A stretch of DNA of 35,886 nt from the NCBI GenBank assembly GCA_024742875.1, contig JANSXP010000072.1:1-35886 (forward strand). The letters are read 5' to 3'. The notes beneath the pieces are model-generated. The model saw only the letters and a program-made list of their open reading frames with translations. It had not been told where the DNA came from and searched no databases. Each line of letters begins with the position of its first letter. Position 1 is the stretch's first letter. The position numbers and the translations under genes are program-made. This document shows positions 6,943 to 21,235 of the stretch, in pieces. This DNA comes from Planctomycetaceae bacterium (lineage in GTDB: Bacteria > Planctomycetota > Planctomycetia > Planctomycetales > Planctomycetaceae).

Positions 6943-9612
6943 CTATTCTTCCGTTTTTGTTTTGCGGAAGCGACGTCGCAGGAATGCGATGCCACCACCG
7001 AGAGCCAGCATCAGCATGCTGCCCGGTTCCGGAACAACGGGAGCACTCGTGGTGCTGCCGTCCATCATGTCCGTGTTGACTCCTGTCTGAAATGGCTGAG
7101 TGTTGGGCTCAGACGGATCCATGACTGGCAGACCGGAACCTGGAACGTTCGTGGTGGAGAAGAATCCATCGCTGGTTGCTCCCGCACCGGCTCCCGCTGA
7201 AGACGACGCTCCGGAAGAGGCACTGCTGCCGGCTCCCGAATTGCTGATCGTGTCGGCAACGCTGTCGCCCAGTGACTGTCCGGCTGATCCCGGAATGGCA
7301 TCCTGGATGGCCTGGTTGACAAAGTCGCCCAGACTGTCGCTGCCGGCATTCGATCCTGCGACAGCTGTTCCGCTGGCAGACGCTCCGGCACTGGCTCCAG
7401 CCCCAGCGTTGGCACCGGCTCCAGCGGATCCACCGCCATTGCCACCACCGCCACCGTTGTCTCCGCCGCCGTTGCCGTAGTGATCGTCTCCGCCGTCGCC
7501 GCCGAAGCCATCACCGCCGCCGTTTCCACCACCGCCGCCGCCGTTTCCACCGCCGCCGCCGATTCCACCGCCGAAGCCATCGCCGCCGCCGTTTCCACCG
7601 CCGCCGCCATTGCCGCCACCGTTTCCACCACCGCCGCCGTTGCCGCCACCGTTTCCACCGCCGCCGCCGTTTCCACCATCGCCGCCATTGCCGTTGCCGC
7701 CGTCGCCGCCAGTGCCATTTCCGGCACCCGCTCCTGAGCCCGCCCCGGCACCCGCACCAGAACCAGAGCCGCTGGCACTGGAGTTGCCGCCGGTACCGAC
7801 GCCGACACCGGAACCAAAGCCATCGCCACCGTCGGCGTTGGCATTCGAATCGGAGTTGGCATTACCACCGGTCGCGTTACCTCCATCCGCATTGGAGTTG
7901 GAGTTGCCACCAGTGCCGTTACCGCCATCCGCATTGGAATTCGAGTTGGAATTGCCACCTGTTCCGTTACCGCTTCCGCCAGTGGCGTTGCCACCATCTC
8001 CACCCGTGGCGGAGTTGTTGCCGCCAAAGCCATCGCCACCATCGGCGTTGGCATTGCCGCCTCCTGCGTTAGCGTTTCCGCCGTTGCCGTTCGCATTGGA
8101 GTCACCTCCATTGCCCGTTCCGGTCCCGTTACCGCCGGCTCCGCCATTGCCGTTGGCATTAGCATTTCCGCCGGTCGTATTGCCGACACTGCCACCAAAG
8201 CCGTCGCCGCCGTCCGCGTTGCCGCCGTCACCACCATCAGCGTTAGCGTTACCGCCGCCCGCATTGGCGTTGGAATCACCGCCGTTACCGTTGGCGGTGC
8301 CACCATTGGCGTCGGCGTTACCGCCGCCTGCATTGCCGCCGTTGCCGTTGGCACCTGCTGTGGTGTCACCAACGCTGCCGCCAAAGCCGTCGCCGCCGTC
8401 CGCGTTGGCGTTGCCGCCATTGCCATTTGCTGTGCCACCGGTACCGCCATTGCCGGTCGCGTTGCCACCGCTGCCGCTGGAATCCGCGTTGCCGCCGTTG
8501 GCAAAGCCGCCGGCTCCGCCCTGGCCATTGGCTGTCGTGTCACCGACACTGCCACCGAAGCCGTTGCCGCCACTGCCGCTGGAATCCGCGTTGCCGCCGT
8601 TGCCGTTGGCGGTCGTGTCTCCCACACTACCACCGAAGCCGCCTGCACCACCGTTGGCCGTTGTGTCGCCGACGCTGCCACCAAAGCCGCCGGCGCCACC
8701 GTTACCTGTCGCCGTGGTGTCACCGACCGTTGAGTTGCCGCCCTGAGCATTGGCCGTGGTATCGCCCACGGTACCGCCCTGTGCGTTGGCCGTTGTGTCG
8801 CCCACAGTTGCCGTGCCGCCCTGCGCGGTGCCGCCTGCGCCACCCTGGCCGCCACCACCACCCTGACCGCCTTCACCGCCGGTCGCCGTGTTGGTCACGT
8901 CACCGGTGGTGACATTGACAGTCACGCCACCGCCACCGTCGCCTTCACCACCACCACCGCCTTCGCCGCCGTCTCCACCGCCGTTGCCGCCGCCACCGTT
9001 GTTGTTGTTGTTGTCGTTGTCATTAGCCAGCAGTGCCGCACCCAGCAGGCCCAGGCCTCCCAGTCCGCCGCCGTTGAAACCGCCAGAAAAGCCGCCGCCT
9101 CCAAAGCCGCCGCCAAAACCACCGCCGCTGAAGCCACCTCCGCCGCCAACAAATCCACCGACCTGACCCGTCTGACCGGTGGCTGGGATAATGGCCTGAC
9201 CATAGGCGGGACCATAGACGTCACGTTCTTCCTCGATGACCAGATACTCTTCGTCATCGGCCAGCAGATCTGTGTCCAGATTCAGCAGCTCCAGTTCTTC
9301 GACTTTGTCACTCTGAACGACCTGACCCGGGCTGTCCACGATGACTTCACCACAGCCACATTCTGAGGCCGCGGCGTGTACGACTGAAGGAATGACCTGC
9401 ATGGCCACCGGATAGCCGGGAACTCCGCTGCTCGCCTGAGACATGGCAGAACAGCAGGCCGCCGTTGGCTGAGCGTATGCAAACCTCGATTCGTAGCGAA
9501 CACCCTGTGCCCAGACAGGAGATGCCGTCACAGCCAGCGCCAGGCCCGTCAAAGAGGCCTGCTTCAGTCGTCGGGAATTCGCCAACAGTTTTCTGAGGTT
9601 AAGTTTCAACAT
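6943..9612 (-). CDS. Giant Gly/Asn-rich PEP-CTERM sorting-domain protein
   Basis: 889 residues. A signal peptide ends at SPVWA-Q (about residue 35). A Cys-containing head follows (40-145, with CGCG and an acidic EELELLNLDTDLLADDEE stretch), then FxGGG-type glycine runs and an N/D tract (NDNDNNNNN). A long Gly/Asn/Ala/Asp/Ser low-complexity body spans about residues 200-780; it carries seven VGDTT motifs plus one VGNTT, and later GGNGGGG runs. The C-terminus is a classic exosortase sorting tail: VPEPGS (about 860-865), a hydrophobic helix, then RRRFRK. The protein would be exported, cut at the PEP signal and displayed or released. It is divergent from the exosortase gene. AAGG lies about 12 nt before the start, in a sequence that can pair with the upstream leader. 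Long antisense Pro-rich frames are mirror images of the glycine codons. Confidence 0.92.
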   Translation of the reverse strand: MLKLNLRKLLANSRRLKQASLTGLALAVTASPVWAQGVRYESRFAYAQPTAACCSAMSQASSGVPGYPVAMQVIPSVVHAAASECGCGEVIVDSPGQVVQSDKVEELELLNLDTDLLADDEEYLVIEEERDVYGPAYGQAIIPATGQTGQVGGFVGGGGGFSGGGFGGGFGGGGFSGGFNGGGLGGLGLLGAALLANDNDNNNNNGGGGNGGGDGGEGGGGGEGDGGGGVTVNVTTGDVTNTATGGEGGQGGGGGQGGAGGTAQGGTATVGDTTANAQGGTVGDTTANAQGGNSTVGDTTATGNGGAGGFGGSVGDTTANGGAGGFGGSVGDTTANGNGGNADSSGSGGNGFGGSVGDTTANGQGGAGGFANGGNADSSGSGGNATGNGGTGGTANGNGGNANADGGDGFGGSVGDTTAGANGNGGNAGGGNADANGGTANGNGGDSNANAGGGNANADGGDGGNADGGDGFGGSVGNTTGGNANANGNGGAGGNGTGTGNGGDSNANGNGGNANAGGGNANADGGDGFGGNNSATGGDGGNATGGSGNGTGGNSNSNSNADGGNGTGGNSNSNADGGNATGGNANSDSNANADGGDGFGSGVGVGTGGNSSASGSGSGAGAGAGSGAGAGNGTGGDGGNGNGGDGGNGGGGGNGGGNGGGGGNGGGNGGGGGNGGGDGFGGGIGGGGGNGGGGGGNGGGDGFGGDGGDDHYGNGGGDNGGGGGNGGGSAGAGANAGAGASAGASASGTAVAGSNAGSDSLGDFVNQAIQDAIPGSAGQSLGDSVADTISNSGAGSSASSGASSSAGAGAGATSDGFFSTTNVPGSGLPVMDPSEPNTQPFQTGVNTDMMDGSTTSAPVVPEPGSMLMLALGGGIAFLRRRFRKTKTEE
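7440..7735 (-). repeat. Coding GGN/GGG-rich repeat tract
   Basis: On the plus strand this is a run of CCGCCGCCGTTTCCACC-like units. It encodes GGGGNGGGNGG and GGDGFGG on the minus strand, within the C-terminal third of the PEP-CTERM protein. It is prone to slippage and assembly error. Confidence 0.8.
8170..8815 (-). repeat. Coding repeats with VGDTTA motif
   Basis: Eight copies of (S/T)VG(D/N)TT, mostly followed by AN and separated by Gly/Asn spacers of varied length, are encoded here in the PEP-CTERM gene. Five are preceded by GFGGS. The regular motif in otherwise low-complexity sequence suggests a structural repeat. Confidence 0.85.
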
Positions 9613-10079
9613 GAATATGTGCCTTATTACGTGGAAATCCGGGTCAAGGACGTTGGGGAGCGATGAACCTGAGACTGTCCACAGAACATCACATCACCAC
9701 GTTGGAGGTCGAAAATAGGCACATGTCGACTTCTCTCCAGACTTCTCTTACGCAATCGTTTGGTTTTACCCACGCCATGCAACCCGATGTCCGTCTGTAC
9801 CGGCTGTGACGGTTTTCGGTTTCGTAAAAGCAACATCGCGGTCTGGACGGCATCACAGACCGGACGATCGCTGCCGTTTCACACGGGAAATGAAAGGAAG
9901 GTCCGTCTGTACGCAAACTGCAAGGTAGCGTTTCATCACCACGCAATGTCCAGCAGTGGGGCCACACGCGGGAAAATTCGTCGTGAGGTTTCGCGTTTTG
10001 CGCACGTCCCTGCTGCACCAGAGCAAACACCAGTTCCTGGGCCGTTCCTTTTAGACCAATACGGAAAGACCTGCCTGCG
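9613..10079. other. 467-base divergent promoter region, PEP-CTERM / exosortase
   Basis: Holds the control region for the PEP-CTERM gene (minus) and the exosortase series (plus). Open frames across it give unconvincing proteins and overlap the exosortase start. I found no good sigma-54 (-24/-12) or sigma-70 pair. The one notable structure is the inverted repeat at 9617-9730. Confidence 0.5.
9617..9730 (-). promoter_or_regulatory. Possible RBS-hiding leader structure of the PEP-CTERM mRNA
   Basis: In the minus-strand leader, ATGTGCCTATT (plus 9714-9724) can pair with AATAAGGCACAT (plus 9617-9628): 11 base pairs with one bulged A. The second arm contains the AAGG that is the only plausible Shine-Dalgarno. 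A small GTCGA/TCGAC hairpin (9708-9712/9726-9730) overlaps the first arm and could compete with it. The role is inferred and depends on a transcription start upstream of 9730. Confidence 0.35.
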
Positions 10080-11039
10080 ATGAAGCCGGTATCCATCCTC
10101 AGGGAGCATGAAGTCAAGTCATGGACGTGTGACGACTGGCAGCACCGCGCTGTCGCGTCGGGCGTGTTCTGCCTGGCGCTGTGGTGGTTATTTCATGACC
10201 TGCTGGCTGCCTTTGTGAACCGCTGGGCTAACGAGCCACAGTACTCCCATGGTTTTGCCATCCCCTTAATGGCGGCCGGGCTGGGCTGGTATCTGAGCGA
10301 TCGCATTCCCAGAGGCGTAGCCCGCTCATGCAAATGGGGACTCGCCTTCATCGCCGCCGGCATCGCGCTGCACATCGGGTCTGTGTACGTCTTTGTGGAA
10401 ATCGGAGACTGCATGGCGTTCCTGCTGTGTGTCACCGGCGGCATCCTGCTGATCTGGGGGCGACGCCTGACCATCGGCGTGTGGCCGGCCATCCTCTTTC
10501 TCATCTTCATGTTTCCGCTGCCCTTCCGAATTGAACGCATGCTGTCAGCGCCACTGCAGCTGTATGGCGCCAGCCAGGCCGCGTGGTACATCCAGACCTT
10601 TGGCATCCCGGCTGTCGCCAAAGGCAGCATGATTCTGATGGGCGATCACAAACTGGGTGTGGCGGAAGCCTGCAGTGGCATGCGAATGCTGACCGTGTTC
10701 ATTGCCATCTCGGCGGCCACAGTCATTGTGTGCAAACGATCCCTCTGGGAGAAGGTGATCATTCTGCTCAGCGCTGTGCCGATTGCCCTGATCTGCAACA
10801 TCGGCCGCATTGTGGCCACAGCGCTGGCCCATACTTGGTTTGGGCAGGAGACGGCGGACCTCGTCTTTCATGACCTGAGCGGCTGGCTGATGATGCCCTC
10901 CGCCATGCTGCTGCTGTATCTGGAACTAAAACTTCTGGACTGGATTTTTGTTCCCGCTCCGAAATCCGACAACCGGCTGCACACCGTCAAGAACTCAAAG
11001 ACCATGCCCGGAATGATGTCTGTCTCGGCACGCAGCTAA
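10080..11039 (+). CDS. Exosortase (PEP-CTERM sorting transpeptidase)
   Basis: 319 residues with about eight membrane helices. The catalytic triad of the exosortase/archaeosortase family is visible: Cys198 in EACSGMRML, Arg243 in CNIGRIVATA and His264 in VFHDLSGW. An early YSHGFAIPL block (55-63) is also conserved. The enzyme sits in the cytoplasmic membrane and cuts or transfers proteins with a C-terminal PEP signal. The nearest such protein is the Gly/Asn-rich one encoded divergently. The C-terminal tail after the last helix (about 290-319) is short and soluble. The start has no evident Shine-Dalgarno. The EpsI-like gene follows after 62 bases, so the two probably form an operon. I cannot assign the exosortase subtype without profile scores. 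Confidence 0.93.
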   Translation: MKPVSILREHEVKSWTCDDWQHRAVASGVFCLALWWLFHDLLAAFVNRWANEPQYSHGFAIPLMAAGLGWYLSDRIPRGVARSCKWGLAFIAAGIALHIGSVYVFVEIGDCMAFLLCVTGGILLIWGRRLTIGVWPAILFLIFMFPLPFRIERMLSAPLQLYGASQAAWYIQTFGIPAVAKGSMILMGDHKLGVAEACSGMRMLTVFIAISAATVIVCKRSLWEKVIILLSAVPIALICNIGRIVATALAHTWFGQETADLVFHDLSGWLMMPSAMLLLYLELKLLDWIFVPAPKSDNRLHTVKNSKTMPGMMSVSARS

Positions 11040-11101
11040 CCGGCCGCAACACCGACGTCGTACTCAACTGCTGACAGCACTGACTCTTTTTTGACATCAT
11101 C

Positions 11102-11758
11102 ATGATGAAGCTCAACCAACGCGAACTGACCCTGATCATTGCCGGCGTGCTGATGCTGTTCATTGGCAAATTTGCTGACAGTTCTGTCAATGGATTCGCT
11201 GCCAGCGATGCCACCGCCCTGACCGAAGCCATTGGCCGACTGGAGAGAATTCCCGCCACGATTGGCAACTGGGAGTCCACGTCCAGCACACTGTCGGAAC
11301 GCGAAATCGAAGTCGCCGGCATTGAAGGCTACGTGCGACGCGAGTATCGCAATCCCAAAACCGGGTACACAGTGAGCCTGACGGTTCTCGTGGGCCATTC
11401 CGGTCCGATGTCCGTGCATCCTCCGACCGCCTGTTTCGAAGGCGTCGGCTACACGCTGATTGCCGGGCCGACACCCACCAACGTGCGTCACAACAAACTG
11501 ACCTCGCAGTTCAACAAATCGTCTTTTCGCCAGGGCAACGAAGCGATTCCGGAAATCGTCCGCGTCTTCTGGGGCTGGGGGTATGACGGCAGCTGGGCGT
11601 CACCCGCCAACCCACGCTTCACATTTCGGGGCCAGTCATTTCTGTACAAGATCTACGTCACTGATCGCTGGCTCGAAGACACGGGCCGCACGGCCCTGCC
11701 GCAGATTGAAAACTTCCTGGAAGAAGCCCTCCCGACGATTTATACGGCGCTGAAGTAG
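11102..11758 (+). CDS. Exosortase-associated EpsI-like protein
   Basis: 218 residues: one N-terminal membrane anchor or signal (about 9-24) and an extracytoplasmic domain. The EpsI signature GHSGPMSVHPPTACFEGVGY (98-117) contains His106 and Cys111; GNWEST near residue 56 also fits the family. EpsI domains accompany exosortases as separate proteins or C-terminal fusions in several phyla. Here the protein is separate and directly downstream of the exosortase gene, which supports a joint role in PEP-CTERM sorting. The biochemical function of EpsI is not established. Confidence 0.85.
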   Translation: MMKLNQRELTLIIAGVLMLFIGKFADSSVNGFAASDATALTEAIGRLERIPATIGNWESTSSTLSEREIEVAGIEGYVRREYRNPKTGYTVSLTVLVGHSGPMSVHPPTACFEGVGYTLIAGPTPTNVRHNKLTSQFNKSSFRQGNEAIPEIVRVFWGWGYDGSWASPANPRFTFRGQSFLYKIYVTDRWLEDTGRTALPQIENFLEEALPTIYTALK

Positions 11759-11818
11759 CCTCCTCCCGCACGACTTCACCTGTCTGCCACTTCTCAACAT
11801 CACACCGGTTTTCCCAAC

Positions 11819-13615
11819 ATGGCACATACCCCTGAACAGCATGAAGCCCAGGAACGACGCGTTGTCAATCTGCGGGCCCTGGCCATCGTCGCCGGGTCGG
11901 TCGTTCTGGCGTCCATTGTCCTGGGTCGCATTCACGCCACGCAGGTCACGCGCACCAGCGAATACCTGAAGACCACCGCAGATTCTGCGCTGGCGGCCGA
12001 AGAACACCGCCGCGCGTTTGATCTGTACGAACAGTATATGACGCTCAATCCCAGCGATGAGCAGGCGGAAGAAACCATCAGTGTACTGCTGGAAGAACAG
12101 GGCAACAGTGTCAAAGCACTGCAGCGGGCCTTTCAGATCAACGAACGACTGCTGCTCAGCGACAAAGAACGGGACGATATCAGACTGCGCCAAATCAGCA
12201 TCGCGGATCGTCTGGGTCGCTATTCAGACGCGGCCGTGCATTTGAAGATCATGCGAGAGAAACGACCAGACCTGGCTGACGTATGGCACTTCAGCGGAAT
12301 CGTCGCCAAAGACACGGGCAACTTCACCGACGCCATTCAGTTTTTCGAAAACGCGATCCGTCTGCAGAATCCCCCTGCGGAGGCATTCGGATTTCTGGCC
12401 ACTCTGCTCACTCGTGAGAAGTCAGATCCTTCCCGTGCCAAACAACTGCTGGATCAGCTGGTGCAGCAGGACCCCACTCCTCAGGCGTCCGCCCTGCGTG
12501 CGGGCTGGCTCATGGAGCAGCGTCGCTTTGCCGAAGCCATCCCCGATTTGTGGACAGCGCTTGAAGGTCAGAAGAACGAAGTCAAACTCAACGCCATGCT
12601 GCTGAAGTCCATTCGCCAGGCGCGGGCAGCAGACAACACGTTCAATGCCAACTGGGAAAACAATCGACTCATTGCCCACCTGCGCGAGGTGCTGGATGCT
12701 GATCCGGACCAGCCTCGGCTGCGGATGTATCTGTCCTCCGCTCTGTGGGCTGTCAATCAGAAAGATACGGCCATTGAGAATCTGAAGCTGGGGATCTCTC
12801 GCGACCCCAGACAGTTTGAGATGCACGAAGTGCTGGTGGACTACCTGGTGAGCACGCAGAGGTATGCCGAAGCGCGGGAAGTCTTCAACGCCATTCCCGA
12901 CCGGGTCCTTGATCGGGGCCGACGGGAATTCATGCGTGGACGCATTCTTATGTCAGAAAAAAAATGGGCGGCCGCCATCGAAGCCTTCGACATGGCCGTG
13001 GGTTTTGCACACGACGATGAGTCCATTTCTTCCCGCGCTCGCATCTGTCTGGCGTTGTGTCGCCGCGAATCCGGGGATAACCAGGCGGCTCTCGATACGC
13101 TGTCCGCCCTCGTGCAGTCCAACCCGGAGCTGGAATCCGGTCGCATGAGCATTGCCTCGGCTTATGCCCAGGCCAACCAGATGCCGCTGGCCATTGCCGA
13201 ATACAAACAGCTGCTGCACGTACCGGATGTACCGCCCTATCTGGCCGACCTGATCATCAAGTACAATCTGACTCTGCCGCTGCAGCAACGCGAGTGGGAT
13301 GATGTGACGGACATCCTGCGAGACGAAGACCCATGGGTCAAAGACGCCGTGCAACGCGGCCTGCTGCAGGCGGACCTGCTGTTTGCTCAGGGGTTCCCGG
13401 CAAGAGCCATGGATCAGCTGGATCGCATTGAGCGACGCATGCCTGACCGGCCGGAGGTGCAGCGGGCGCGGGCACGCCTGTCGACTGTGCATGGCGAAAC
13501 ACTTATCGCCCGCGTCAAAAATGTCCTTGCCGAAGATCCTCGCAGCATGGAAGGTCACACCAGCATCCTGCGACTTTATCTGGCCCGTGGCGATCTGCAG
13601 GCCCTTGATCGCTGA
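11819..13615 (+). CDS. Membrane-anchored TPR protein, N-terminal part (ends at in-frame TGA)
   Basis: 598 residues before a TGA at 13613-13615. A cytoplasmic tail (1-18) and one membrane helix (about 19-36, LRALAIVAGSVVLASIVLG) are followed by a long series of helical TPR-like repeats (AFDLYEQYMTLNPSDEQA, AIQFFENAIRLQNPPAEA, AIEAFDMAVGF and others). The same frame continues open beyond the TGA for 297 codons, also TPR-like, so this looks like the first two-thirds of an 895-residue protein. TPR proteins often accompany exosortase/EPS loci as assembly scaffolds. It starts 61 bases after the EpsI-like stop with no clear Shine-Dalgarno. Whether the shorter product is functional is unknown. Confidence 0.8.
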   Translation: MAHTPEQHEAQERRVVNLRALAIVAGSVVLASIVLGRIHATQVTRTSEYLKTTADSALAAEEHRRAFDLYEQYMTLNPSDEQAEETISVLLEEQGNSVKALQRAFQINERLLLSDKERDDIRLRQISIADRLGRYSDAAVHLKIMREKRPDLADVWHFSGIVAKDTGNFTDAIQFFENAIRLQNPPAEAFGFLATLLTREKSDPSRAKQLLDQLVQQDPTPQASALRAGWLMEQRRFAEAIPDLWTALEGQKNEVKLNAMLLKSIRQARAADNTFNANWENNRLIAHLREVLDADPDQPRLRMYLSSALWAVNQKDTAIENLKLGISRDPRQFEMHEVLVDYLVSTQRYAEAREVFNAIPDRVLDRGRREFMRGRILMSEKKWAAAIEAFDMAVGFAHDDESISSRARICLALCRRESGDNQAALDTLSALVQSNPELESGRMSIASAYAQANQMPLAIAEYKQLLHVPDVPPYLADLIIKYNLTLPLQQREWDDVTDILRDEDPWVKDAVQRGLLQADLLFAQGFPARAMDQLDRIERRMPDRPEVQRARARLSTVHGETLIARVKNVLAEDPRSMEGHTSILRLYLARGDLQALDR

Positions 13616-14506
13616 CTCACCGACCTGAAATCCGGAGAAAACTACGCCAGCGTATCCCCTCGAGAACGTCTGATACTCCTTGCCGAAGCGTCAACCTCAG
13701 TGGCAGACAGGGAACTGGTGACCCGCGGTTCAGGTGAAGGGCTGAAAGTCCTGCAGACGCATGCCGTCAGCGCATGGCGGGAACTGGCTGGCAGCGGCGG
13801 TGACTGGCTGCGACGGTACGTTCGCTTCTACGCCATGCATCGAAATACAAAATCTGCCATCGAGGTGGCACAATGGGTCAGCCAAAACACGAGTGACAAA
13901 GCCACAGCGGCGGCCTGCTGGCTGGAGTGTCTGAAGTCGGCACCGGATGACGCGGCCGTTCAGCAGAAAGTGGACGGTGAACTGCGGGCGCTGATCACAG
14001 CGTCTCCTGGCGAGACAAAACTGCGAATCGCCTTTGCAGAAAGCCGAATCCTCATGCAGCGTTATGACGCTGCCAGAAGCGTACTCAATCAGGTCGTGCA
14101 GTATGATGATCGCAAGGCGACAGCTTTTGCCCGGCTGGCATGGATCGCGCTGCTCATCGACAACGACCAGACAACTGGCGAGCAGAATTCCGCCAGAGCC
14201 ACCCGACTCAATTCGGGGTCAGCGGAGATCCGTGCGATTCGGGGGCTGGCAATCGCCGAATCGGGCCGACCGGAAGACGCCATCAAAGTGCTGTCGTCAA
14301 TTCCCAATCGGCAGCGAACGGCCGCCTCCTATCTGTTTGAAGCGCGTGCCTACATGATCCTGGGACGGGAATCGAAGGCCCGCGATCTGATCCTCGAAAT
14401 CAGCCAGCCAGGCAGTGTGGCCCGGCTGGACCCTGCAGAACGCCGGATGCTGGTCAAACTACAGGACCAGCTGAATGTGCCATCCCGTCACATGACAGGC
14501 GTTTGA
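13616..14506 (+). pseudogene. TPR protein, C-terminal part after in-frame TGA
   Basis: This continues the frame of the upstream TPR gene, with no shift, from the TGA at 13613-13615 to a stop at 14504-14506. Translation directly after the TGA (LTDLKSGENYASVSPRERL) is already protein-like, and TPR-like helices follow (RYDAARSVLNQVVQYDDRKA, GRPEDAIKVLSSIP, GRESKARDLILEIS). A separate start is possible only at GTG 13700 or later, without a convincing ribosome-binding site. Possible explanations are a nonsense mutation (TGG to TGA is one transition), a sequencing error, or readthrough of TGA-C. It is called a pseudogene part because the simplest reading is a broken gene. Confidence 0.6.
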
Positions 14507-14752
14507 GGATCAGCGATACCGATTCTGTGGGTTCGGAAAGACTGACAGGCAAAAGACTTAGCGGTCACACGGGTCGTACGATGGACCTGGGTGATGACAC
14601 AGACAGTTACACGAGATTCCTTTGGGCGTCCGCTTTTTGTCTGCTAGCCTTTTCATCGGGTGGTCCTACAACTACCTTAAGAGTCCCTCCGCACGAGCGC
14701 CAAACGTCGCCCGTGCCCCCAACCCTCCACAACACTCACCAGCGGCGCGCCC

Positions 14753-17254
14753 ATGCATTCTTCGCGCACCATGCCTGCCATCCTCCTGTTTGCCGTGACC
14801 GCTCTGTCAGCGGGGCCCTGTTGCTGCGCGCAGGATGGGCCCGTCGAAACACCGTCCGCGTCTGAGGAACTCGAGTTCGCTTTCGAAGGGGCCCCATGGC
14901 GTGATGTGGTGAAATGGCTGGCAGATTCGGATGACCTTGCCTTGCACATCACGGACCTGCCGACCGGATCCTTTACGTATTCCGACGGTGCCCGATACAC
15001 GACACAGGCTGCCATAGATCGTGTGAATTTGTTTCTGCTGCCGCAGGGCTTCACCATTGTGCAATCGGGTCGTCTGCTGTCGTTAATCAATCTGCAGGAT
15101 CGCCAGAGTCAGCAGCAGCTCGACTCACTGGCCCGTTTGGTCAGCAAAGACGAGATCGCGAAATTGCCACCCAACGAAGTCATCAAGTGTCTGTTTGAAC
15201 TGGGAGAGCTGGATGCGGCCGATGCCGTTGAGGAGCTGTCGGCCCTGAATCTGATGACACAGCCGGCCGTCTTCCCCCGCACCAACCGCATCATGGTCAC
15301 GGACACCGCCGCGAAACTGCGCAGTGCCGCGCTGGTGCTCAGTTCTTTTGAACCACGAAAACTCGACAACGGCACTGTGGTCAAGAGCTTCGCGCTGGAA
15401 CACGTGGAGGCCGAAGACATTCTCGTCGTCGCCCGACCTCACCTCGGACTGGCCACTGGCGAGATGATCGGCATCGATGTCAGTCTGTCTTCTGATGTGA
15501 AGGGTGAGAACCTGTTTGTCACCGGCGTCGACGACAAAGTCAAACTCATCGAAAACCTCGTTCTGGCCATCGACCGCCCCAAATCGGATTCTCTGTTGAG
15601 CTCTGGAAAACAGGAACTGCGCAGCTACGTCATTGAGGGCGGCAATCTGCAGACCGTTTACAACGTGCTGCTGACCGTGCTGGCAGGAAAAGAAGAGATG
15701 CGACTGTCAACCGATGAGGCGGCAGGATCCATTGTTGCCCTGGCCACCCCGGAGACACACGAAGAAATCGCCGCAACCGTTGCCAAACTCAAGGCCGACG
15801 AAACCGAGTTTGAGATCATTCCGCTCAAAAAAGTGGATCCTTACTTTGCTATCAGTCTGCTGGAGCAGATGCTCGAACTCGACGCATCTGACGACGAAGA
15901 TGATTACACACCGTGGTGGGAGCGAGATCGCTGGGACAGCGGCGATGACGATAAAGGATCTGTGGATCCTCCCAAAGTCGACGCCGACCCGGCAAATCGC
16001 AGGCTGTTTGTCAGGGGACGCCGCTATCAGATTGAAGAGATCAAAAAGATCGTGGCCGGCCTGGATGAAGGGACCGTCGGCCCCGGCGAATCCGCCGAGA
16101 AACTGCGTATCTTCCCCCTCAAAGGACCGCGTGCCGAGCAGGTCCTGAGAACGGCCGCCAGGTTCTGGAAGCAGCCGAACCCCGTGTTCTTTTATCCAGA
16201 CGGTGAGGAGCAGACACAGCCGACGGAACGCGTGATCAATGATCAGCCGCCGACATCTGACAATGGCAGCGGTCGTCCCACGACGTCCACATCCGGTTCC
16301 TCCGGCAACTCGGGAGTGATGCTGACCCGCACGCGACTGTCACAGGCGGCCGAGATTCGCTGCCAGATCATGGCGCGGGGCCTGCTCCTGCAAAGTGAAG
16401 ACACCGAGGCGCTGGATGAGTTTGAGTCACTGCTCAGAACGCTCAGTGGCACGGCAGACTCCTCGCCATCGCCCCCGGTTACGTTCTACATGAAATACAC
16501 AAGAGCCAGTGACGCCATTCACATGCTGGCGGAACTGCTTGACGGAGGCGAGGCGGCCCGCGAGGCCGAAGAGTCCAGTCTCGTCAATGGCATTGTCACC
16601 AACTCCAACTCCCTGCTGAGCAGTCTGATCACCGCGCGAGAGGGCGTCATGACGCTGATCTCTGGTTCGATCACGGTCGTGGCCGACACGCGGCTGAACC
16701 GTATGATCGTGCAGGGCACGGCCGAAGAGGTTGAACTAATCGAAGGCTATCTGGAGATCATCGATCGCGACTCCAGCCTGACAGAGATTGAAACCTACGG
16801 GACGTCACACATCGTCGAACTGTCATACGCACAGGCGACGGAAGTGGCCGAGGCCATTCGCGAAGCCTACGGAGCCCGAATATCGGATGGCAAAGGGGCC
16901 GGCGCATCCGGAGGCTCACAGGGCGGTCGCACGGATGACCGTGACGATGACCGCAAAAACGACAAGCGCGCTCCGCGGCCCACACCCGGTCAGGCGGCCC
17001 GCGACCTGGAACCCAAAATGACGGTGACCGTGCACGTCCCCAGCAATTCGCTGGTGGTGACGGCGCCCGACGCTCTGTTTGCCGAAGTGCAGAAACTGGC
17101 AATTCTGCTGGATGAACGCAGCCGACAAACAGTCCGCATTCTGAACGTACCGGACGCGATTCCGCTGGAGTATCTGCAGCAGGTGCTCAGCAATGAGCCC
17201 GGCAGGATCAACATCAGCAGCGGTTCGACCCAGAAGAGCAAACCCAGAAAGTAG
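14753..17254 (+). CDS. Secretin-N-domain-like repeat protein without visible secretin barrel
   Basis: 833 residues with a signal peptide (ending near CCCAQ, about 27). An N0/STN-like start follows (FEGAPWRDVVKWLADSDDLALHI), then several copies of the small secretin_N-type alpha/beta fold: KSFALEHVEAEDILVVARPHL near 205, RSYVIEGGNLQTVYNVLLTVL near 290, FEIIPLKKVDPYFAISLLEQML near 348, LRIFPLKGPRAEQVLRTAARF near 450, and SHIVELSYAQATEVAEAI near 685. Acidic and Ser/Gly/Thr linkers lie between them. I do not see the C-terminal secretin beta-barrel with its VPLLGDIP-type motif. The protein ends in a basic GSTQKSKPRK tail. It probably forms a periplasmic ring or adaptor. Position after the exosortase genes suggests, but does not prove, a shared job. 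Confidence 0.75.
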   Translation: MHSSRTMPAILLFAVTALSAGPCCCAQDGPVETPSASEELEFAFEGAPWRDVVKWLADSDDLALHITDLPTGSFTYSDGARYTTQAAIDRVNLFLLPQGFTIVQSGRLLSLINLQDRQSQQQLDSLARLVSKDEIAKLPPNEVIKCLFELGELDAADAVEELSALNLMTQPAVFPRTNRIMVTDTAAKLRSAALVLSSFEPRKLDNGTVVKSFALEHVEAEDILVVARPHLGLATGEMIGIDVSLSSDVKGENLFVTGVDDKVKLIENLVLAIDRPKSDSLLSSGKQELRSYVIEGGNLQTVYNVLLTVLAGKEEMRLSTDEAAGSIVALATPETHEEIAATVAKLKADETEFEIIPLKKVDPYFAISLLEQMLELDASDDEDDYTPWWERDRWDSGDDDKGSVDPPKVDADPANRRLFVRGRRYQIEEIKKIVAGLDEGTVGPGESAEKLRIFPLKGPRAEQVLRTAARFWKQPNPVFFYPDGEEQTQPTERVINDQPPTSDNGSGRPTTSTSGSSGNSGVMLTRTRLSQAAEIRCQIMARGLLLQSEDTEALDEFESLLRTLSGTADSSPSPPVTFYMKYTRASDAIHMLAELLDGGEAAREAEESSLVNGIVTNSNSLLSSLITAREGVMTLISGSITVVADTRLNRMIVQGTAEEVELIEGYLEIIDRDSSLTEIETYGTSHIVELSYAQATEVAEAIREAYGARISDGKGAGASGGSQGGRTDDRDDDRKNDKRAPRPTPGQAARDLEPKMTVTVHVPSNSLVVTAPDALFAEVQKLAILLDERSRQTVRILNVPDAIPLEYLQQVLSNEPGRINISSGSTQKSKPRK

Positions 17255-17295
17255 CCCACTGCGCAACGCAGACACAATGGCATCGGGAGCAGACC

Positions 17296-19008
17296 ATGTG
17301 CGTCTTTCGACACCTTGCGGTTTTGGCCGTCATGATTTGCGTGATGGAACCATCGTCGGCATTCGGCCAGGCGGGTCTCCGCGAATCGCTGGAAAAGCTG
17401 GACACCAATGCCAATGGCCTGATCGAAGCGGATGAGGTCACACCGCTGGCGCGTCCTTACCTGGAGCGCATCATCCTGGGGCGGTCGCGGCGTGTCGACG
17501 ATCCGTTTCGCAAGCCCATGCGCATCGACAAGATTCAGGAATCGGCCCGGATCTACTACGCACTGAAGAATGGAGTCGGCGGAGAACGCGTGGTGTCCGA
17601 GCCGGAGAATATGATTCGCAGCTTCGGGCCCGAGCGCGATGAAAACCTCGTACCGGGGTTTGGCATCGGAGAAATCAAGTTTCCCTATACACAGGGCGAC
17701 GTGGATGAAGCGCGGGAAACCATGGGCCGCTGGGATCGCAACGAAGATGGCTTCATCGATCGCGAGGAAGCCCGTCGCGGCCGCTGGACGCACCGCAACC
17801 CGTTCGATGATGACCTGAACAATGATGATCGCCTGAGTCTGATGGAGTTCACGCAGCGTTATGCTCGCAGGCGGCTGCTGCAGGGAGACGCCGAAGAACT
17901 GGTCCGCCGCGCCTGGCGGACAGGCGGAGAAATTGAGTCTTCCGTTCGAGGGGAAAAAACAGACGAGTCTCAGTGGTGGAAGAAGGGCGGCAGCGATTAC
18001 TGGCTGACCGCCGCTTTGCTGGGCCGTTTTGATAAAAATCGCAACGGCACGCTCGATGTGGAAGAGGCCAGTCGGATGGGACTGCCCATTGCCGGCCTGG
18101 ACAAGGACGCGGACGGGTTGCTGACGCGCGATGAGCTGTTTCCGCTGGTCGCAGAAATGCAGGCCGAGGCGGGAGACGTCACCGATGGACTGCCGGGCTG
18201 GTTTTTTGAACTGGACGCCAATCGTGACGGCCAGGTGGCCATGTACGAGTTTGCCGAAGAATGGTCGCTCGCCAAACGTGAGGAGTTTCAGCAGCTGGAT
18301 ATCAATGGTGATGGCCTGCTGACAGATAAAGAAGTCCTTCAGGCGGCTTCCGTGACGGGAGGCGATTATCGCAACGAGGTCGCCGAGGTCCTGCCTCCCA
18401 AACGATCCATCATCTCTGAGATCGAAGTGGAAGACGATTTTCCGATTAAGGACCTCAACCTGGAACTGTCCATCACCCACACCAACGTGGGTTCGCTTGA
18501 TGCCTTTCTCACCGGCCCGGAAGGGGAACGCGTGGAACTGTTCACCGAAGTGGGCGGCTCAGGAGACCACTTCAACAAGACAACGTTTGATGATCAGGCG
18601 GGGACTCCAGTGGTCAAAGCACGCCCGCCGTACGAAGGCTCGTTTCGGCCGGAAGCCATCGACAAACGCCAGCCTGGCCTGGGAATCTTCAACGGTAAGA
18701 GCGTTCGTGGCGTCTGGCAACTGGTGATTCGAGGAACCCGCAGCGATCGCTTTGGCATGCTGCACAGCTGGAGTCTGAAGGTTGTGCCGGAAGACGATGA
18801 CAAGGCAGCGACAACACGTCTGTCTCCGCGGGAAGAGCAGAACGGCGATGAAGAGCAGCTGGACGAGGAGAATCGCTCCGCCGCCGGTGACTCTGCCGGG
18901 AAAGTCCCTGGCAAATCGGGCGAAAAATCGTCGGCCGACAGGAAGCGTTCCAAAGAAGACGGCAAATCGGGTGGACTGCTCGACCTGCTGAACCGCTCGC
19001 CGTTTTAA
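17296..19008 (+). CDS. Secreted seven-EF-hand protein with proprotein-convertase P-domain
   Basis: 570 residues with a signal peptide (cleaved near SAFG-Q, 24). Seven EF-hand-like loops are readable: DTNANGLIEADE (36-47), DRNEDGFIDREE (147-158), a weaker one at 173-184, DKNRNGTLDVEE (246-257), DKDADGLLTRDE (269-280), DANRDGQVAMYE (307-318) and DINGDGLLTDKE (335-346). A P-domain follows (about 370-490), with LNLELSITHTNVGSLDAFLTGP and the closing VRGVWQLVIRG...LHSWSLKV. The tail is charged, low complexity and Lys/Ser/Glu-rich. P-domains usually accompany a subtilisin protease; no catalytic domain is present here. GGGAG sits about 7 nt before the ATG. It lies 41 bases after the secretin-like gene and is probably co-transcribed. 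Expected to bind calcium outside the cytoplasm. Confidence 0.88.
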   Translation: MCVFRHLAVLAVMICVMEPSSAFGQAGLRESLEKLDTNANGLIEADEVTPLARPYLERIILGRSRRVDDPFRKPMRIDKIQESARIYYALKNGVGGERVVSEPENMIRSFGPERDENLVPGFGIGEIKFPYTQGDVDEARETMGRWDRNEDGFIDREEARRGRWTHRNPFDDDLNNDDRLSLMEFTQRYARRRLLQGDAEELVRRAWRTGGEIESSVRGEKTDESQWWKKGGSDYWLTAALLGRFDKNRNGTLDVEEASRMGLPIAGLDKDADGLLTRDELFPLVAEMQAEAGDVTDGLPGWFFELDANRDGQVAMYEFAEEWSLAKREEFQQLDINGDGLLTDKEVLQAASVTGGDYRNEVAEVLPPKRSIISEIEVEDDFPIKDLNLELSITHTNVGSLDAFLTGPEGERVELFTEVGGSGDHFNKTTFDDQAGTPVVKARPPYEGSFRPEAIDKRQPGLGIFNGKSVRGVWQLVIRGTRSDRFGMLHSWSLKVVPEDDDKAATTRLSPREEQNGDEEQLDEENRSAAGDSAGKVPGKSGEKSSADRKRSKEDGKSGGLLDLLNRSPF

Positions 19009-20086: not shown

Positions 20087-21235
20087 ATGTTCAAACGACA
20101 TCGGACCAAATTCCTCATCGCCGCCGTGCTGGGTTCGGTGCTTGCCTATCAGTCGTTCGCGACACCGGAACCGCGGCCCCGGCCATACGTTCCTGCCGAA
20201 CATCTCCGCACGGCCGTGTTTGCCGGGGGCTGTTTCTGGTGCATGGAGCCTCCCTTCGAAAAGCTCACCGGCGTCGTCGATGCAGAATCCGGCTACACGG
20301 GCGGCACCGTCCCCAACCCCACGTACAAGCAGGTCTGCGCCGGCAACACGGGGCATCTGGAAGCGATCCGCGTCTCTTACGACAAGCGACTGATCTCCTA
20401 TGAAGATCTGCTGGAAGTGTTCTGGCGGAGCATGGATCCGACCGACAGCGGCGGGCAGTTTGCCGATCGCGGCGAGTCTTACACGTCCGCCATCTTCTAC
20501 GCAGACAATGAGCAGCGCGACCTGGCCCGCGCCTCCAAAGAAAAGCTGGATGAGTCGGGGCGTTTTGACAAGCCCGTTGTCACTCCGGTTCTGCCGGCCA
20601 CAACCTTCTACGTCGCCGAGGATTACCATCAGGACTACTACCGGAAGAATCCCATTCGCTACAGGATGTATCGCTCGGGGTCCGGCCGTGACGCGTTTCT
20701 GACAGCCAGTTGGGGAGACGAGCTGAACTTCAAACCGAGCACACCGCAGAACGGTGTCGTCGCGGCCGATGACGGAACGGTGGAGAAGGTTTTCTTTCGC
20801 CCGACTGAAGAAGAACTGAAAAAGCGACTGACCACACTGCAGTACCGCGTCACCCAGCAGGATGCCACAGAACCCGCATTCTCCAACGACTACTGGAACA
20901 ACTCTCAGGTAGGGCTGTATGTAGACATCGCTTCCGGCGAACCTCTTTTCAGCTCAGAAGACAAGTACAAATCGGGAACCGGATGGCCGTCGTTCACACG
21001 TCCTGTCGACACAGAATCCATCGTGGAACGCACGGACTACAAACTGCTGCTGCCGAGAACAGAAGTGAGGTCGCGCATCGGTGATTCTCATTTGGGTCAC
21101 GTGTTCAGTGATGGTCCACAGCCCACTGGACGTCGCTATTGCATCAATTCCGCCGCCCTGAAGTTCATTCCTGTCAGTCAGCTGCAGGACATGGGATACG
21201 GCAAGTACCTGAAGCTCTTCCAGAGCGTGGATTGA
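20087..21235 (+). CDS. msrAB: Exported methionine sulfoxide reductase, MsrA-MsrB fusion
   Basis: 382 residues. An N-terminal hydrophobic signal or anchor (9-25, [17 protein letters not shown]) points to a periplasmic enzyme. The MsrA domain (about 40-195) has the GCFWC motif (catalytic Cys49), GYTGG and YHQDYY. The MsrB domain (about 250-370) has [17 protein letters not shown] and the catalytic RYCINS (Cys352). Together they reduce S- and R-methionine sulfoxide in oxidised proteins. The MsrB part lacks the CxxC pairs that bind structural zinc in many MsrBs: the position before SSEDK has no Cys, and GTGWPSF replaces GCGWPSF. AAAGG lies about 9 nt before the ATG. The gene stands alone, with structured sequence upstream. 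Confidence 0.93.

Follow-up and report, generated by a model that had tools for sequence, protein, structure and literature searches.

A small exosortase unit facing a long, repeat-rich PEP-CTERM protein recurs in one clade of planctomycete exosortases

The window analysed here is an entire contig (C153, 35,886 bp) of a Planctomycetaceae draft genome (8.18 Mb in 168 contigs, 98.1% complete). Between positions 6943 and 14506 it carries genes for an exosortase, an EpsI-like protein and a tetratricopeptide-repeat (TPR) protein, which face a divergently transcribed gene for a long Gly/Asn-rich protein with a PEP-CTERM sorting tail. This stretch is a real unit that recurs in a monophyletic clade of exosortases, mostly away from polysaccharide genes of the XrtA type. 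The gene comparisons suggest that, in these water-dwelling bacteria, an anchoring enzyme has been inherited beside one long, fast-changing, repeat-rich surface protein and probably processes it. On balance we favor reading 6943-14506 as a small, nearly private exosortase system, and dedication of the exosortase to a small substrate family, made up of the window protein and its paralog encoded on contig C113, is likely. The parts of the unit are the following.

6943-9612, minus strand: Gly/Asn-rich PEP-CTERM protein of low complexity (889 aa), the presumed substrate in cis; above the TIGR02595 and PF07589 cut-offs
6964-7035, minus strand: PEP-CTERM sorting tail VPEPGSMLMLALGGGIAFLRRRFR; 30.3 bits in the genome-wide tail search
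10080-11039, plus strand: exosortase with Cys198, Arg243 and His264, from a monophyletic planctomycete clade to which no named NCBIfam type corresponds; PF09721, TIGR02602
11102-11758, plus strand: EpsI-like (DUF3485) exosortase partner; PF11984 39.0 bits, syntenic in relatives
11819-14506, plus strand: PrsT-like TPR gene with an in-frame TGA at 13613-13615 (first open reading frame 11819-13615, remainder 13616-14506)

A first-pass annotation of the window had described a Gly/Asn-rich PEP-CTERM protein of 889 residues divergent from an exosortase with all three catalytic residues, followed by an EpsI-like gene, and profile searches bear out these descriptions. The 6943-9612 protein scores 23.8 bits with TIGR02595 (cut-off 16) and 21.9 bits with PF07589 (cut-off 20.7). 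Its C-terminus follows the pattern of PEP motif, hydrophobic helix and basic cluster, with the tail at residues 860-883, and Gly and Asn account for 39% and 14% of the C-terminal 530 residues. The N-terminus, read by eye, has a basic start, a hydrophobic stretch and the motif AQG, a putative signal peptide. By pattern scan, this is the only V/I/L-PEP tail in the window, in agreement with the first reading. The exosortase gene lies on the opposite strand, with the two starts 467 bp apart, and its product reaches 184.3 bits with PF09721 (cut-off 25.7) and 137.6 bits with TIGR02602 (cut-off 105.55). An alignment of 33 rows locates Cys198, Arg243 and His264, which we take to be the catalytic residues. 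Among the best 25 of 26 NCBIfam families, the window exosortase reaches the cut-offs of just two generic models, 8TM_EpsH and exo_archaeo, and none of the type-specific ones (XrtA, XrtB, XrtD, XrtV, XrtW and others), scoring 133.4 of 208 bits for XrtA and 154.7 of 400 bits for XrtD. The EpsI-like protein is over the cut-off of PF11984 (39.0 bits, cut-off 26.1) and under that of TIGR02914 (27.0 bits, cut-off 42.8), and the TPR gene scores 88.9 bits with TIGR02917, the PrsT TPR lipoprotein family, under the cut-off of 312.2; intact relatives score 110.4 and 81.1 bits. Sigma-54 control, as for proteobacterial PEP-CTERM genes, found no support: the window has 25 loose matches versus 24.9 expected, and none falls at 9612-10080.

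Recurrence of the unit was followed in a panel of 98 genomes, searched for the exosortase, the N-terminal domain of the substrate and a secretin-N-like gene described below, and in a second scan of named genome contigs. The second scan yielded 14 loci, of which L127-L136 match the window exosortase at 48% or better; L127, L128, L132 and L134 appear to be the same as G003, G012, G059 and G053, respectively. The nearest exosortases in the panel are those of G003 (78%), G004 (72%), G012 (67%), G059 (57%) and G053 (49%). Exosortase, EpsI-like and TPR genes keep their order in G003, G004, G012, G059, L129, L130, L131, L133 and L136, and L135 has the exosortase and TPR genes with merely a remnant of EpsI. 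In a tree of 32 exosortases, computed without the very long-branched row L033 (C113) and with a bootstrap that is not fully settled, the window-type exosortases form one group of 12 rows (100/100). In nine rows the unit lies opposite a low-complexity gene, including contig-cut copies and a broken one in G059; one row is G053, and L135 and L136 have no such neighbor. Conserved positions vary at two loci: Cys and Arg are replaced in L135 (9980-11029), the locus with the EpsI remnant, and His is replaced in G053 (L072 125-1078).

Where the facing gene is complete, it encodes 889 aa in the window, 757 in G004, 465 in G012 and 542 in L130, every time with a PVVPEPG[ST] tail. In L129 it meets the contig end directly past PVVPEPG, and in L131 and L133 the contig ends inside its low-complexity sequence, with the tail outside view. 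The N-terminal half of the G003 substrate ends contig C117, and a C-terminal piece that is 64% identical to the window end over 75 aa ends C146; we infer that the two pieces are one gene. Read by eye, the middle of the protein is GGNA-like in the window, has more than 200 residues of mostly SG in G004, combines GTTG and GGGSND in L130, and consists of DPPTDGPGKDPV in L131. A Cys cluster and PGYP are conserved near the N-terminus in the window protein, G003, G004 and the C113 type. By this reading, the repeat regions are rebuilt between species, with the ends kept. The N-terminal 145 residues of the window protein were found in 3 of the 98 genomes (the window genome G000, G003 and G004; E ≤ 0.001), every time adjoining a window-type exosortase. 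These comparisons support the idea that the repeat-rich cis substrate accompanies the exosortase unit.

That no exopolysaccharide synthesis genes lie nearby, as first noted, holds for C153 and breaks down in parts of the clade. Because the window is the whole contig, proximity could be judged solely within C153, where Pfam scans of 23 open reading frames gave no match to polysaccharide-synthesis families. Queries for XrtA-type kinase, deacetylase, glycosyltransferase and ligase likewise found no match in the window, L068-L071, L129-L131, L133, L135 or L136, within flanks reaching 1-10 kb upstream of the exosortase gene and 0.7-8.6 kb downstream of the TPR gene. In G053, the exosortase and TPR genes are followed by XrtA-type genes, with TIGR03006 (342.5 bits) and TIGR03087 (417.4 bits) over their cut-offs and TIGR01007 and TIGR03097 under theirs, and the relative G049 has XrtA-type matches in its locus. 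G059, L131 and L133, which are near-identical here, have a family-2 glycosyltransferase gene that starts 4 bp past the TPR gene (PF00535, 119.6 bits in L131) and for which the window and the other unit loci searched yielded no relative.

L071 12439-13221, L131 5939-6721 and L133 5459-6241: family-2 glycosyltransferase, G059 subclade only

With this gene directly behind the TPR gene of the G059 subclade, a clean reading of the clade as free of exopolysaccharide genes is weakened.

The window protein had been proposed as the single substrate of its exosortase, and a genome-wide count of tails contradicts that proposal on the terms it had set for its own refutation. TIGR02595 gave 34 matches at E ≤ 10, of which 31 are over the cut-off (one of the 31, L029, lacks a PEP motif), and PF09721 identified seven exosortases. 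Such a count could mean that the window exosortase acts on PEP-CTERM proteins at large, many or even all of those in the genome, and that its position beside one of them is a regulatory or historical accident; species that have any PEP-CTERM protein frequently hold at least twenty (PMC3237569). We nevertheless consider a general exosortase unlikely. All five genus mates without a close ortholog of the window exosortase carry 2-6 tails (E ≤ 0.32), which indicates that other tails are independent of this enzyme. The other exosortases have adjacent tails of their own: four of the seven have a tail within 1.5 kb, where random placing would expect 0.015 each, and the divergent pair in the window makes a fifth. 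One of those four tails, on C76, scores 15.7 bits, barely under the cut-off. Private PEP-CTERM neighbors are thus a local habit of this genome's exosortases, and in the window type the cis linkage persists through much of the clade. On contig C7 (L090, L091; G000), three exosortases lie within ∼11 kb, each adjoining its own PEP-CTERM gene; the trio adjoins a long run of open reading frames, and all three that were scanned match glycosyltransferase families, so that the genome holds an exosortase set beside polysaccharide-type genes elsewhere. A separate case is G030, with 28 tails at E ≤ 0.32 and no PF09721 match at E ≤ 1e-5, which may reflect a divergent exosortase, an assembly gap or orphan tails.

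A general exosortase also fits poorly with the tail subtype, which only 2 of the 29 scored tails of the genome match. The subtype profile was built from the cis substrates of G003, G004, G012 and L130 and applied to 29 of the 34 own tails, the five outside scoring being the one without a PEP motif and four others. The window protein scores 20.0, the C113 protein 5.7 and the other 27 tails no higher than -13.5; the window score is that expected of an ortholog, and the information lies in the score of C113. The notion of a dedicated system fails in the sense of one substrate per genome and survives in a narrower sense, with two tails of the window subtype and a substrate N-terminal domain that lies beside the exosortase in each of the three genomes where it was found. 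Of 73 tail proteins that could be parsed, five (C113, two from G003, G004 and G005) carry a pre-tail signature, EP..D[IVL]PV..P[ST]DP; the window protein has it only in a degenerate form that does not match the pattern. The 73 remain from 80 tail loci after 7 without a parsable tail; a few parsed tails were picked by pattern away from the profile match, L182 looks spurious, and G004 is represented by the loci for 16 of its 25 tails.

The C113 protein is Ser/Gly/Asn-rich, lies beside an aminotransferase gene and is syntenic in G003 (C154) and G012 (C207). Paralogs of this type occur in G000, G003 and G012, all three of which bear a window-type exosortase, and none was seen at the aminotransferase in G001, G002, G006, G007, G038, G049 or G057, all without one; the genomes in this comparison are few and related. 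G005 has no aminotransferase match. A further neighbor at the C113 site, a DUF1559 gene, is common only to G004, G006, G053 and G059 of the ten other genomes compared at the aminotransferase, so the site in the other six is matched by one gene alone. Beside the C113 paralog, locus L088 encodes a 1063-aa TPR protein (10740-13931) and a 271-aa protein (9762-10577) that ends in a VPPA-type hydrophobic stretch and RRRR and is outside the TIGR02595 list.

The TPR gene had been recognized correctly, with the reading frame at 11819-13615 covering just its front part: the frame continues past the TGA and is open to 14506 but for that one codon. Five relatives have an uninterrupted gene of 891-899 codons with a sense codon at this position. 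Recoding of the TGA is ruled out; other window genes terminate with TGA, and it is therefore an ordinary stop. The nonsense codon could mean that the system is dead in the window strain and that its conserved parts are a recent remnant, and decay is seen elsewhere in the clade, where L135 lacks Cys, Arg and most of EpsI, G053 lacks His and the G059 substrate is frame-broken. However, the segment past the stop shows no greater divergence, relative to the segment before it, than is seen between intact relatives. The ratio of downstream to upstream identity is 0.72 for the window and G003 versus 0.68 for G003 and G004, with no sign of faster decay past the stop. Because the downstream part is not unusually diverged, the stop either arose recently or is an error of sequencing, and we regard a decaying locus as quite improbable.

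Two further genes follow the unit on the same strand.

14753-17254, plus strand: secretin-N-repeat protein without a barrel, upstream member of a conserved pair of its own, outside the exosortase system
17296-19008, plus strand: EF-hand/P-domain protein (PF00036, PF01483), second gene of the separate pair, outside the exosortase system

Both had been identified correctly: the first has five PF03958 stretches as its sole Pfam matches at E ≤ 0.1, with no secretin barrel seen, and the second matches the EF-hand and P-domain families. Their proposed role as assembly factors does not hold, and we reject them as parts of the system. The two genes sit side by side in the window and also in 12 further genomes (G001, G002, G003, G005, G006 at a contig edge, G007, G038, G057, G072, G077, G080 and G083). 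Of these 12, 11 are without a window-type exosortase; the exception is G003, where the pair is on C77 and the exosortase on C117. G012 has neither gene over threshold, and G004 has a partial, weak secretin-N-like match and no EF-hand match; the EF-hand gene was sought by whole-genome search in 58 genomes, and at most 10 secretin-N-like candidates were scored per genome, such that a weak relative could be hidden. Among the genomes examined, only the window genome has the pair next to the exosortase unit. A single surface-assembly locus spanning 10080-19008, as the close spacing and shared strand in the window would suggest, is already contradicted by this distribution and is extremely improbable. 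Of the synteny expected for 10080-19008, the exosortase, EpsI-like and TPR genes are kept in relatives, and the secretin-N-like and EF-hand genes form a pair independent of them; the second refutation named in the first-pass annotation thus applies to that pair and not to the EpsI-like and TPR genes. Farther along the window, 20087-21235 is an ordinary fused PMSR-SelR (methionine sulfoxide reductase A/B) gene.

Several observations weigh against a nearly private system. Cross-processing is possible because 31 tails over the cut-off and six other exosortases share the genome, and the common tail subtype may reflect nothing more than homology among the substrate genes. At the aminotransferase of G004, G059 and G053, which bear the exosortase, no C113 paralog was seen. 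G005 and G006 carry subtype tails, and a window-type exosortase was not found there; this absence is uninformative because the subtype genes run off contig ends and their N-terminal half was not found. The exosortase of G059 keeps its residues and its facing gene is frame-broken (L071 6500-8110), with the relatives' protein matching in three frames, which also excludes a 131-aa open reading frame facing that operon as an intact substrate. The L136 exosortase is intact and has no facing low-complexity neighbor. The TPR stop may signal a failing system in the window strain, and signal peptide and membrane helices were read by eye.

In the small, nearly private system that we favor, the low-complexity protein would be exported by Sec via its putative signal peptide, and its PEP-CTERM helix would hold it in the inner membrane. 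The exosortase would cut at the tail and hand the protein to an acceptor for surface display, serving the window protein and the C113 paralog and not the other tails. The repeat region may act as a spacer, stalk or matrix polymer, and the EpsI-like and TPR proteins may help in processing or hand-over. None of the locus genes accounts for outer-membrane crossing. A broader proposal, tentative and in our judgment somewhat doubtful, is that a planctomycete cell may hold several orthogonal exosortases, each with its own tail subtype. The window exosortase would then serve two hypervariable low-complexity polymers, marked by EP..D[IVL]PV..P[ST]DP and a PVVPEPG-type tail, whose repeats would be swapped wholesale between species with the ends kept, displaying interchangeable protein polymers mostly without a polysaccharide locus at hand.

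The closest known counterpart is the XrtA (EpsH)/PEP-CTERM system with EpsI and PrsT (Haft et al. 2006, PMC1569441), which has in common with the window unit the Cys/Arg/His exosortase, an EpsI-like partner, a PrsT-like TPR stretch and the PEP-CTERM tail. The likeness extends to the clade member G053 and the relative G049, whose loci include XrtA-type deacetylase and glycosyltransferase matches, whereas the covered stretches of the other units are without XrtA-type polysaccharide genes. The window unit also differs in that it reaches no named NCBIfam exosortase type, its PrsT match is under the cut-off and its apparent client is one long repeat-rich neighbor. Dedicated single-target sorting systems, as defined in the rhombosortase paper (PMC3237569), resemble it in that enzyme and target genes adjoin; the window genome differs in having 31 tails, seven exosortases and a second subtype substrate in trans. 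Experimental support comes from other systems. In Aquincola, the PEP-CTERM gene PepA and the TPR gene prsT are needed for floc formation (PMC9850573), and in Nostoc cyanoexosortase B (CrtB) is needed for motility and biofilm (PMC12188702). These cases share PEP-CTERM and TPR genes, or an exosortase, with the window unit, but the effects are tied to exopolysaccharide in both reports, whereas the window unit is set apart from such genes within C153, and low-complexity repeat makes up nearly the whole of its client. A works-like comparison, without membership, can be drawn with the Ser-Asp-repeat stalks of MSCRAMM proteins, where a long low-complexity region also precedes a C-terminal sorting tail; the NCBIfam matches of the G004 and C113 proteins to these stalks are far under the cut-off. 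MSCRAMM proteins belong to the sortase/LPXTG pathway of Gram-positives and have a folded adhesin head. The idea of a dedicated sorting system is already in print (PMC3237569). A window-type unit was not described in the literature searched on exosortase/PEP-CTERM systems, including those of Planctomycetes, a search that covered few of the subscription papers.

To our knowledge, how an exosortase selects its clients from tens of PEP-CTERM proteins, and what follows from having several exosortases per cell, are open questions. One genome here holds seven exosortases and 31 tails. Because five of the exosortases have a PEP-CTERM neighbor and one of these pairs has a recognizable tail subtype, the genome is suited to a direct test of the sorting code. 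PEP-CTERM sorting was correlated with exopolysaccharide expression in the founding paper (PMC1569441), and the window clade would help to separate the two.

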